Source of the DNA: Nitrospira sp.
Lineage (GTDB): Bacteria; Nitrospirota; Nitrospiria; Nitrospirales; Nitrospiraceae
DNA: 64,000 nt
Reading direction: 5' to 3'
Assembly (NCBI GenBank): GCA_030123565.1
Contig: CP126122.1
Span: forward strand, 3,920,800 to 3,984,799
The notes under the pieces are model-generated. The model made no database searches. It saw nothing but the letters and a program-made list of their open reading frames with translations, and was not told the DNA's origin. Below, piece by piece: positions 421 through 19,381 of this stretch (its first letter is position 1; each line of letters opens with the position of its first letter). Both the position numbers and the translations under genes were made by a program.

Positions 421-771
421 GGGGGCGACCGGTTTCGACGGGGATACTGATGCCATCGTCGCATGTCGAGCTCTCGGGGTCTCGTAAATCCTCCGGGAAA
501 CAGCAACTGCCAATCAAGAACTGGCACTCGCAGCTTAATTTAAGCTGAGACGTCGTTCCATCTGAGGCCCGCGGGGGTGGAACGGCGCGATGCAGCGGGC
601 TGGTCCCAGGCTGGTGTTCAGCGGCGGGGGACGAGACAATACTGGACTAGCGGCGATTCTAAGCCTGCCGATAGGCGTGGGTCGTTGCGAACCTCAAAGA
701 ATCGGCTACACATGTAGACGCGATGTGCCGACGATCTTCGGACAGGGGTTCAACTCCCCTCGCCTCCACCA
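421..771 (+). ncRNA. ssrA: tmRNA (transfer-messenger RNA)
   Basis: tmRNA rescues stalled ribosomes and tags the incomplete protein for degradation. The 5' end GGGGGCG (421-427) pairs with CGCCTCC just before an encoded ACCA 3' end at 768-771, forming the alanine-type acceptor stem. The TTCAACTC T-loop lies just upstream of that arm. The tag reading frame GCC AAT CAA GAA CTG GCA CTC GCA GCT TAA at 509-538 gives ANQELALAA, a typical LAA-ending degradation tag; the resume codon could instead be the GCA at 503. Length is about 351 nt, normal for one-piece tmRNA. Short open frames on either strand across it are spurious. Confidence 0.96.
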
Positions 772-13073: not shown

Positions 13074-13531
13074 TTGACAGGTTTTTCTAATGGGCGTAGA
13101 GAACAGGTGCGGCCCAATTTCATCCAAGGTGGTAGGTGGGGGATCGGACAGACCGCGCGGCTGCCGTCGAGATCTCTCACGGATTCCCACAGGAGAAAGG
13201 AGGGTGGATGATGGACGATTCGACTCCACCTGGCCCGTATGGCCCGCCGAAGTGAAGGCGAGCTTCTCGTCGTTCATGCCGGACGGTTCTCCATCGACTA
13301 TGCCACAAGGCATCGAAGACGCACCCTACTGGGCGTTGCGTTATGCTCATGATCGGAGAACCCTATTGCGGAGTAGAAGAAACGTCGTGTCACGAGAAAG
13401 AGCGGTTTCCCCCGACGGGAAGTCCTGTTGTCCTGATACATTCGACGGGTCTAACAGGAGCCGCAACATCCAACAACAGCCATCGGCGTCCTAAGCGCCA
13501 CGCACGGGCTCCCAGCAGAATGGGAGCCCGT
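13074..13531 (+). ncRNA. Small transcription unit A (structured RNA encoding a 14-residue peptide)
   Basis: The unit starts with a sigma70-like promoter: TTGACA at 13074-13079, 17 bp spacing, TAGAGA at 13097-13102. It contains the 14-residue ORF at 13211. A short hairpin ATGCC-ACAA-GGCAT (13300-13313) sits 45 nt after the stop. It ends with an 11-bp hairpin ACGGGCTCCCA/TGGGAGCCCGT (13504-13531). A second copy of the same layout and length lies at 13596-14050. A longer frame through this unit (to 13494) is absent from the second copy, so it is probably not a gene. Function unknown. Confidence 0.6.
13211..13255 (+). CDS. 14-residue peptide A of the duplicated unit
   Basis: ATG at 13211 preceded by AAAGGAGGG gives MDDSTPPGPYGPPK and stops with TGA; an ATG one codon earlier is also possible. 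The counterpart at 13728 encodes MEELTPPDQNGPQT. The two nucleotide sequences align without gaps, and differences in the N-terminal half are mostly conservative or synonymous (Asp/Glu at 2 and 3, synonymous Thr and Pro codons). That supports translation. It could be a leader peptide, a small regulatory peptide or the coding part of a dual-function RNA. Confidence 0.5.
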   Translation: MDDSTPPGPYGPPK

Positions 13532-13727
13532 ATCGTCTCGGCCGTCGCGAAAAATGTTTCGCTTCCTGCTCTGGCACCTAGGGCCTATTTTTCTGTTGAC
13601 AGGATTTTTTAAGGAGCGTAATAGGGATATTTATAGTCTGCAAAAGGCTGTGCTTACCGTGACGAGGCGGTGGACAGTGCGCGCCTGTTCGGGACACCTC
13701 GCCACTCATCAACCGGGGAGGTTCATA

Positions 13728-13772
13728 ATGGAAGAACTTACGCCACCGGACCAGAACGGCCCGCAGACCTGA
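13728..13772 (+). CDS. 14-residue peptide B of the duplicated unit
   Basis: ATG at 13728 lies 6 bp after GGGGAGG. The product MEELTPPDQNGPQT shares the pattern M-acid-acid-x-TPP-x-x-x-GP with peptide A, and is acidic and proline-rich. There is no signal peptide or hydrophobic segment. I do not recognise it. Confidence 0.5.
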   Translation: MEELTPPDQNGPQT

Positions 13773-14003
13773 GGGTGGGCTGCTCGTCGGTCGTGTTTGC
13801 CGGTTCTTCTTTGGCTGTGCCTCAAGGCACTGTTGATCAAACAGGATGACAGCCGCTGAATAATGGAAGAATCGAAGTGAGACACGAGGCACACCAGTAT
13901 CCTGGGGTAATGACATCCCCCGACGAATACCCTGATGCTTCTCAGGTTCGAACGGGTCTTCCACTGACCACAATCTAAGTGCTTTCGGCGTCCCAAGCGC
14001 CAA

Positions 14004-14050
14004 CCACGGGCGACCTCCCACCGTAGTGTAGGGTCGCCCGTGGCATTTTT
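14004..14050 (+). terminator. Rho-independent terminator of small unit B
   Basis: CCACGGGCGACC (14004-14015) pairs perfectly with GGTCGCCCGTGG (14032-14043), followed by CATTTTT. Confidence 0.85.
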
Positions 14051-14145: not shown

Positions 14146-14679
14146 ATGTCACTGTTCGACCAATTTGCCCGCGGCGATTTCGTCAACCCTGCCACATTGT
14201 TGGGGGCCGCCTTTTACGCCTTTCTCTTTATGACCATCGCCTGGTTTCTTTCCCGCATGGTTCGGCTCACCGTGCGTCGCTTCCAACATCTCTTGATCGA
14301 TCAAACCGTCTCGACCCTTCTGATCCGTCTCGCACAGGTGGTGATCTACGTGATGGCCGCGATTCTCTATGCGCACGCGATTCCACAATTGCGGTCTGTG
14401 GGAACCGCTCTGTTGACGAGTGCCGGGGTCGCATCCATTCTGTTCGGGTTGGCGGCGCAAAGCACCTTGAACAATCTGGTGTCTGGATTCGCCCTGTTGT
14501 TGTACCAGCCGTTCGAGATGGGCGACAAAGTGCAGGTGGCTGCGCCCAGTGGCCTCGAAACCGGTGTCGTCGCAGAGATGACCATGGGCTATATCATCAT
14601 CCGGACAGAGAACGGGCGGGAAATCGTGGTCCCTAATAGTGTGGCGGCGACGCAGGTGGTGGTCAGGCTGGCCGCCTGA
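14146..14679 (+). CDS. Small mechanosensitive channel (MscS family)
   Basis: 177 residues. Three hydrophobic segments are followed by GLAAQSTLNNLVSGF, matching the pore-lining helix of MscS, and PFEMGDKVQV, the start of the beta domain. The protein stops soon after the beta domain and lacks the usual C-terminal alpha/beta part, so it is a short form. It would release solutes on osmotic downshock. Start supported by GAAGGAGG. Confidence 0.85.
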   Translation: MSLFDQFARGDFVNPATLLGAAFYAFLFMTIAWFLSRMVRLTVRRFQHLLIDQTVSTLLIRLAQVVIYVMAAILYAHAIPQLRSVGTALLTSAGVASILFGLAAQSTLNNLVSGFALLLYQPFEMGDKVQVAAPSGLETGVVAEMTMGYIIIRTENGREIVVPNSVAATQVVVRLAA

Positions 14680-17518: not shown

Positions 17519-19381
17519 ATGAGTAGCTCCCAGGCTCAGGTCGCGCTCGTCAACATGCCCTTCAGTTATTCGAAGTATCCCTCCATTCAATTGGGCACGC
17601 TCTCCGCGCTCTTGAAATCGAAGGGCATCGGGGTCGATTGCCACCACCTCAATGTGCGGTTCGCGCACAAGATCGGGATTCCCCTGTACGAATCGATCTG
17701 TGAGAAACGCGCGCTTTTCGGCGAGTGGTTGTTCTCCTACCTGCTTTTTCGGGACAATCCGAAGCGCGCCGAATACCCGCAGGTATTCAAGCCCGTGTTC
17801 GAGCAGCTGGCCCGCGAAAGCGGAAGGCCGGTTTCGTTTTTCGGGGAGATGGCCACGAAGACCGCGCCGCAGTTCTTGACCGGCGCGATGACGGCGATCG
17901 ATTGGGGTCGGTACAAGATCGTCGGGTTTACCTCGACCTTCGATCAGAACGTGGCCAGTCTCACCATGGCGAGGCTCATCAAGGATCTCTATCCCGACGT
18001 CAGGATCGTTTTCGGCGGCGCCAATTTCGACGGCGAGATGGGGCTGGAATATTTCCGGGCCTTCCCGTTCATCGACCATGTGGTCGTCGGCGAAGGTGAG
18101 GTGACGTTTCCCGCCTTGGTCAACCATATCCTGAACGGATCGACCGGGGCGTACCCGAAAGGTGTGACCTATCGACAGGGCGGTCACATCAAGTTCGAAC
18201 CGAACCCTGCCCTGTTCACGGAGTTTGCCCACACCGGGCCGCCCGACTATGACGACTATTACCATCTGTTGGCCGAGCTGGGTACCGAGGCGTCGCGTGG
18301 TCTGGATCGTATTCTCTTGTATGAAGGCTCACGCGGCTGCTGGTGGGGTGAGAAACATCACTGTACGTTTTGCGGCCTCAATGCGCAGAGCATGAAGTTC
18401 CGGGCGAAATCGTCCGAGCAGGTCGCCCGCGAGATGGCCTATCTGTCCAGCCGTTACGATACGACGCGGTTCCGCCTGGTCGATAACATCATCGACATGA
18501 AGTACGTCGAGAATCTCTTCGGCGCGTTTGCGCAGGACCGCCGCGATCTTGATGTCTTCATCGAAACCAAGAGCAATTTGCAGAAGCATCAGATTCGCCT
18601 GCTCGCCGCCGGCGGGGTGAAATGCATGCAACCGGGACTGGAGAGCCTGAGTCAGGCGCAGTTGCGCGCGATGGACAAGGGCGTGACCCCGATGCAGAAC
18701 CTGGTATGTCTGAAGTGGTGCTATTACTATCGCGTGGCGGTCTCGTGGAACATTCTTCTGGGGTTCCCGGGAGAGACGAACGACGACTACCGCCGCCAGA
18801 TCGACTTGATTCCCTCCCTCTTCCACCTGCAACCGCCGGAAGGGGCCGGGAAGTTCTGGTTGGAGCGGTTCAGTCCGTACTTCACGCGGCCGCATGAGTA
18901 TGGGGTCCATATCACCGGGCCTGGGTTGGCCTACGCTTACGTCTACGATTCGCGTCAGGTGGACCTGGCAAAAATAGCCTACGATTTTGAATATGAGCTG
19001 GAGCAGTGGCCGGTGGATCCCGATGTCTATCAGGAGTTGGTAGAGACCGTGCAGGAATGGCAGCGGCGCGCGGCCTCATCCGACAAACCGTTCCTGTATT
19101 ATTCCAAATCGTTCGACTATGTGACGGTGTATGACGGGCGGACGGCCGCTCCCACAAGGGAGCGGTTCGACTGGCCGGCTTCGTTTCTCATCGATGCCTG
19201 TAATGAAGCGCCCAAGTCATTGGAGCAATTGCGGGGCGGGTTGCGGGAACAGTCCGAAGCGGGCGATATGTCCGATGCCCTGCTGCAGGAGTCGCTGGCG
19301 AAACTGACGGCAAAACGAATTCTGTACGAAGAACGAGGAAAGTACTTCACCCTGGCCATTCCGGAACACCCCTACTATTGA
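17519..19381 (+). CDS. B12-binding radical SAM enzyme, RiPP maturation C-methyltransferase-like
   Basis: 620 residues. The N-terminal about 200 form a cobalamin-binding Rossmann domain (IQLGTLSALLKSKG, VFGGANFDG, VVVGEGEVTFPAL). The radical SAM core begins at EGSRGCWWGEKHHCTFCGLN, a modified cluster motif with three cysteines and the WWG signature of the family annotated as RiPP maturation radical SAM C-methyltransferase. The C-terminal about 150 residues resemble the helical tail of that family. Members modify ribosomal peptides. No obvious precursor gene, transporter or second modification enzyme flanks it, so the substrate is unknown. Confidence 0.82.
   Translation: MSSSQAQVALVNMPFSYSKYPSIQLGTLSALLKSKGIGVDCHHLNVRFAHKIGIPLYESICEKRALFGEWLFSYLLFRDNPKRAEYPQVFKPVFEQLARESGRPVSFFGEMATKTAPQFLTGAMTAIDWGRYKIVGFTSTFDQNVASLTMARLIKDLYPDVRIVFGGANFDGEMGLEYFRAFPFIDHVVVGEGEVTFPALVNHILNGSTGAYPKGVTYRQGGHIKFEPNPALFTEFAHTGPPDYDDYYHLLAELGTEASRGLDRILLYEGSRGCWWGEKHHCTFCGLNAQSMKFRAKSSEQVAREMAYLSSRYDTTRFRLVDNIIDMKYVENLFGAFAQDRRDLDVFIETKSNLQKHQIRLLAAGGVKCMQPGLESLSQAQLRAMDKGVTPMQNLVCLKWCYYYRVAVSWNILLGFPGETNDDYRRQIDLIPSLFHLQPPEGAGKFWLERFSPYFTRPHEYGVHITGPGLAYAYVYDSRQVDLAKIAYDFEYELEQWPVDPDVYQELVETVQEWQRRAASSDKPFLYYSKSFDYVTVYDGRTAAPTRERFDWPASFLIDACNEAPKSLEQLRGGLREQSEAGDMSDALLQESLAKLTAKRILYEERGKYFTLAIPEHPYY

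Follow-up and report, generated by a model that had tools for sequence, protein, structure and literature searches.

Two tandem structured RNA genes with a short, partly conserved reading frame in Nitrospira

The contig that carries this locus is a 4.6-Mb closed Nitrospira genome, of which a 64-kb stretch (3,920,800-3,984,799), here called the window and numbered from its first letter, was analysed. Two paralogous genes for structured RNAs lie in tandem on its forward strand, each of ~420 nt and each with a mini-ORF inside. Gene order is shared across relatives: the RNA is preceded by PPK2 and often a DUF4412 or CCP/MauG gene, and followed by genes for a ParB-like protein, PCD and a radical SAM protein (neighbouring genes were named from Pfam). 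In part of the genus a short MscS-like protein of 177 aa, only the beta-domain of which is recognised, is encoded directly downstream of unit 2 (14146-14679, +), and in several relatives (L111, L112, L126 and others) a repeat, GCAGGCTGTTGAAAAAGTC... or similar, stands just after the RNA and resembles a dispersed repeat or REP element.

All features of the two units lie on the + strand. The promoter of unit 1 (TTGACA-N17-TAGAGA, 13074-13102) carries the element TAATGGGCGTA in its spacer, and the RNA itself spans 13108-13533, with approximate ends, the 5' end being placed from the promoter. From the 5' side, its fold comprises helix P1 (13108-13115, pairing with 13458-13465; 91% of cells paired, three pairs double-changed), which is lost in unit 2, and the P2 hairpin with apical CAGACCGCGCGGCUG (13136-13180; two helices, 12 pairs changed on both sides). 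A Shine-Dalgarno sequence, AGGAGG (13198-13203), retained in the members examined, precedes mini-ORF 1 (MDDSTPPGPYGPPK, 13211-13255 with its stop), the constrained part of which is codons 1-8 (13211-13234). The 5' strand of helix P4 (13241-13256) overlaps codons 11-15 and pairs with 13432-13451, the 3' strand as mapped on unit 1 in the covariation analysis; 10 of its 16 pairs have changed on both sides. The consensus fold places P5 at 13260-13273/13412-13425 and P6 at 13275-13292/13355-13378. There follow an AUGCC-ACAA-GGCAU hairpin (13300-13313; 98% of cells paired, three pairs changed on both sides), a GGCG-UCCUAAG-CGCC hairpin (13485-13499) whose 7-nt loop is nearly invariant and whose stem is paired in 100% of cells over 42 sequences, and a terminal hairpin (13502-13533; 9 of 16 pairs changed on both sides).

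Unit 2 has its promoter, TTGACA-N17-TAATAG, at 13596-13624, preceded by a box CTAGGGCCTA at about 13578-13588, which reads CTAGGGCCGA in most of the genus; as CTAGGGCCGA-TTTT, this conserved box stands just 5' of the -35 of this unit in nearly all members and is possibly an UP element or an activator site. The RNA (13630-14048, ends approximate) contains a Shine-Dalgarno sequence, GGGGAGG (13715-13721), that is invariant in alignment A2, mini-ORF 2 (MEELTPPDQNGPQT, 13728-13772 with its stop; conserved part MEELTPPD, 13728-13751), the P4 5' strand GGCCCGCAGA (13758-13767) with its CGGGUC partner at 13953-13958, a GGCG-UCCCAAG-CGCC hairpin (13987-14001, from sequence and fold), and a terminal hairpin GGGCGACCUCCCACC...GGUCGCCC (14004-14043) that is 0.99-1.00 identical to the consensus of single-copy members. 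The sequence-only reading of this DNA had listed promoters, ribosome-binding sites, ATG ORFs, a GGCGTCC(T/C)AAGCGCC box and terminal hairpins in both units, and all are present in both. The hairpin that it placed after each stop is likewise there, ~44-45 nt on (AUGCC/GGCAU in unit 1, GUGCC/GGCAC in unit 2), and the compensatory A-T to G-C change between the two is genuine, being one of a family-wide set of compensations.

TTGACA is present in every aligned member; outside the genus of the window the spacer usually reads CTAATGGGCGTA, forming a dyad with CCCATT at the -35. A search for TTGACA-N8-TAATGGGCGTA gave no more than one site in any genome; 33 of the 78 genomes have one (control, 0), and the sites that were checked against RNA coordinates lie at the RNA locus, so that it is a private element and defines no regulon.

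The units are no chance arrangement: of 28 same-genus genomes searched, 26 contain a homologue of unit 2 that aligns at 76-94% identity along 352-470 nt, with unit 1 directly upstream in those same 26. The two genomes that have no RNA also lack the neighbouring ParB-like gene, so that the region has probably dropped out of their assemblies. A covariance model built on the 119-nt 5' domain (R1; home-built, with rough E-values) matched 141 of 236 genomes of the order, in 11 genera of a single family, that of Nitrospira, and a search across the class gave no match in other families, although the stricter filters used at this scale may miss weak matches. Named genomes with the sequence pattern of unit 1 are Nitrospira, including Candidatus Nitrospira defluvii; four pattern matches outside Nitrospira (L047, L064, L071, L076) reach no more than 14.6 bits under the model and were dismissed as chance, and no match to the unit-1 motif was found in viral contigs. 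Most genomes have one copy, and some have a diverged second copy at another locus. Six such copies in other genera (L129, L131, L133, L134, L136, L138) form a clade of their own (support 0.99), with SPPG, SPPD, NPPD or TPPD in their mini-ORFs. Six genomes from other, deep genera have the ParB-like gene, but no RNA was found within 1.5 kb of it.

At gathering thresholds Rfam reports only tmRNA and tRNA in the whole window; at E<=5 the two units give a single antisense chance match (16.4 bits against a cut-off of 55), and ten relatives match nothing in Rfam 15 at E<=1. This supports the initial impression that the units belong to no known family, and a search of the literature found no Nitrospira RNA of this kind. 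The refuting outcome set for that first reading, relatives devoid of peptide pattern and paired changes alike, was looked for and did not occur. That the units represent a new family of structured RNA genes is all but certain, and the family has been inherited vertically at a single locus. The missing 6S RNA was considered as an identity and rejected: a weak 6S match, under the Rfam cut-off, sits elsewhere in the genome (G000:C1:1387215-1387289), and the 6S RNA of Nitrospira seems to be divergent.

Alignment A5, of 42 family sequences, yields a consensus fold of 122 pairs, 74 of which carry two-sided changes, where shuffled controls give 46 (sd 3.7) and slid controls 42-52; double-change cells number 326, against 130 (sd 13) shuffled and 96-116 slid. 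The elaborate fold predicted from these sequences is supported by strong covariation. So strongly conserved a fold invites the explanation that the RNA is purely structural and non-coding, a scaffold or protein-binding RNA in which GGAGG and ATG belong to the fold or to a protein site and the ORF goes untranslated, which we consider unlikely though far from negligible. CsrA, which binds GGA motifs, is encoded in the window's genome, and the RNAs average 8.3 GGA motifs each; however, only about 1.6 per RNA are fully unpaired in the consensus fold, too few exposed sites for a CsrA sponge of the CsrB/RsmZ type, which was rejected. A hairpin that would bury the Shine-Dalgarno sequence and account for the conservation of CCACC (RNAalifold, helices 4-5) contains zero pairs changed on both sides, so RNA pairing provides no explanation for the conservation of the Pro-Pro codons.

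The conserved part of the mini-ORF reads M-x-[D/E]-x-[T/S/N]-P-P-[G/D], with the acidic residue and PP[GD] kept within the first eight codons. Among 51 distinct ORFs, codon 5 is T or S (I once), codon 8 is G or D (S once, I once), and P-P is constant; the PPS and PPI forms come from two closely related unit-1 copies. In a phase test that used a tree built from the remainder of the RNA, codons 2-8 changed 18:12:47 times at positions 1:2:3 (third position 47 of 77, permutation p=0.0065), whereas codons 9-14 lack a third-position bias (p=0.24). This confinement of the bias to codons 2-8 speaks against a purely structural RNA, as do the paralogues at other loci, which keep PP[GD] after AGT (Ser), AAT (Asn) or ACT (Thr), thus preserving T/S/N-P-P-G/D through different codons. 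In favour of it are the stop codon, which is not conserved, and the wobble positions of unit 2, which are almost frozen, the first 24 nt of that ORF varying at one CCA/CCG wobble only. Since parts of the mini-ORF, those of unit 2 most of all, are also constrained as RNA, CCA being nearly invariant, the evidence for coding is moderate. It supports coding selection on codons 1-8, and the mini-ORF is probably both translated and selected.

What follows codon 8 is much less regular. In 19 of 26 genomes unit 2 has TAG or TAA as its ninth codon, which gives MEELTPPD and then a stop, and the species of the window is one of the seven with a sense codon there; the 14-residue peptide first read from unit 2 is accordingly not a conserved product. 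That of unit 1 keeps its 14-codon length within the genus, but only eight of its codons are constrained, and the stop wanders in other genera, the mini-ORFs ranging from 8 to >19 residues. A duplicated dual-function RNA or peptide system had been proposed for the pair: the duplicated structured RNA with a short ORF stands, while a conserved complete peptide does not. The conserved Shine-Dalgarno sequence, start codon and N-terminal residues would suit a dual-function RNA that encodes a signalling peptide or a working small protein, yet the variable length and the want of coding constraint past codon 8 make that an improbable account.

From one relative to another, different genes come next downstream of the RNA, and many of them face the other way; the RNA is therefore not a leader that controls a gene of its own transcript. 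Together with covariation, its own promoter and the terminal hairpin, this variable downstream gene marks it as a free-standing structured RNA. The possible tie to the radical SAM gene ~3.5 kb away (17519-19381, +) fared poorly. That gene is a strong member of TIGR03975, 'RiPP maturation radical SAM C-methyltransferase' (599.7 bits), and the mini-ORFs might in principle encode its precursor peptides; but every one of the 22 genera sampled in the family has TIGR03975 matches, including many genera where the RNA was not found (the RNA is in 11 genera of the order), and on this distribution the precursor reading is rejected. It is rendered very improbable, too, by the absence of a conserved core region and by the RNA paralogues at other loci.

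Another genome, G069, also has two tandem copies. In the phylogeny its second copy forms a clade with unit 2 (support 1.00) and its first copy falls with unit 1 (support 0.99), so that the duplication is older than that split. Judged from the trees, the pair stems from a single old tandem duplication in the genus of the window. Retention, measured at positions conserved among single-copy members, divides between the copies: the 5' domain is kept at 0.97-0.98 in unit 1 versus 0.33-0.62 in unit 2, the GAGGAACACAAG core and terminal hairpin at 0.88-1.00 in unit 2 versus 0.35-0.86 in unit 1, while both copies retain the GGCGUCC hairpin, P4 and the start region (0.81-0.99). This is the pattern expected of complementary degeneration, the ancestral 5' domain having survived in unit 1 and the ancestral 3' core in unit 2; as a clear case of this process in RNA genes, with each copy retaining the half that the other lost, the tandem pair allows a direct test of which half does what.

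We propose, as a reading that we rate slightly under an even chance, that the RNA is a free-standing switch gated by the progress of a ribosome on its own mini-ORF. Ribosomes would load at the strong Shine-Dalgarno sequence and be slowed at, or lost from, the early acidic-Pro-Pro-Gly/Asp stretch. When the second Pro codon occupies the P site and Gly/Asp the A site, the mRNA would enter the ribosome ~12 nt past the first P-site nucleotide, a position that coincides with the base of P4 (ORF nt 31), the long-range helix whose 5' strand starts at codon 11; the spacing from PP to P4 is free of gaps throughout the 42-sequence alignment. If the ribosome paused or fell off at codon 7-8, P4 and with it the global fold would stay intact; if it read through, P4 would melt. 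Gating of the fold by such a pause is, by analogy, plausible at somewhat less than even chances. The known EF-P-dependent pauses include PPD and PPG (PMC4140641), EF-P is encoded in the window's genome, and the stop directly after PPD in most unit-2 copies counts in favour of this reading; the many PPX motifs at which pausing is not strong (PMC4140641) and the two unit-1 copies with PPS and PPI count against it. The mgtL leader offers a parallel: acidic residues and prolines near the start of its ORF make the ribosome stall or drop off, which switches an RNA structure (PMC11282234, PMC6460261). If ribosome progress gates the fold, the switch would respond to the status of EF-P, prolyl-tRNA, Mg2+ or ABC-F, and given the variable stop codon, it may depend on the species whether full translation melts the fold. 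The fuller proposal, a non-leader riboregulator whose fold is set by a ribosome on an eight-codon pause ORF and which duplication split into two complementary, possibly co-acting RNAs, is more tentative and on the doubtful side.

The proposed switch would act by way of its own folded RNA, for which the invariant UCCYAAG loop is a candidate contact. That loop is also a candidate seed for base-pairing with mRNAs, and it is nearly invariant on a hairpin that is paired in every sequence; C-rich UCC loops of staphylococcal RNAs commonly target GGA in ribosome-binding sites. The RNA could thus be a trans-acting sRNA that pairs with the Shine-Dalgarno regions of its targets, with the mini-ORF as an accessory, an idea compatible with the pause model. 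We find it rather unlikely: it leaves the coding signature and the large conserved core unexplained, and a profile search of the window's genome for Hfq (PF17209) gave no match, which speaks against an Hfq-dependent sRNA.

Known systems each share part of this arrangement. The mgtL and mgtP leaders (of mgtA and mgtCBR in E. coli and Salmonella) also place a short ORF that begins with acidic residues and prolines in a structured RNA, but they are 5' leaders that attenuate a downstream gene, whereas the Nitrospira RNA has its own terminal hairpin and a variable next gene; no sequence relation to them was found. RNAIII/hld and SgrS/SgrT are free-standing structured RNAs of 200-500 nt with an embedded short ORF that encodes a functional peptide of fixed length. 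The Nitrospira RNA shares with them the free-standing structured RNA and the short ORF, and differs in that only eight codons are constrained and the stop wanders. OLE, GOLLD, ROOL and HEARO exceed 400 nt and have many covarying helices, a narrow phylogenetic range and no known role; the Nitrospira RNA resembles them in length, helices and range, although its relatives match no Rfam model, and to our knowledge none of the four has a conserved mini-ORF that encodes a pause. The tmRNA, likewise structured with an internal short reading frame, is encoded separately in the window (421-771); the Nitrospira RNA was not detected as a tmRNA, and its ORF has its own Shine-Dalgarno sequence and ATG. Structured bacterial RNAs of >400 nt are few and mostly without a known role, and to these the Nitrospira RNA, absent from Rfam and retained across relatives of the nitrite-oxidising Nitrospira, adds one. 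It has the look of an RNA switch that stands on its own and is operated by the ribosome, a kind absent from existing catalogues, and if the pause-gated model is true, the dynamics of translation would here shape a free-standing RNA instead of attenuating a gene in cis.
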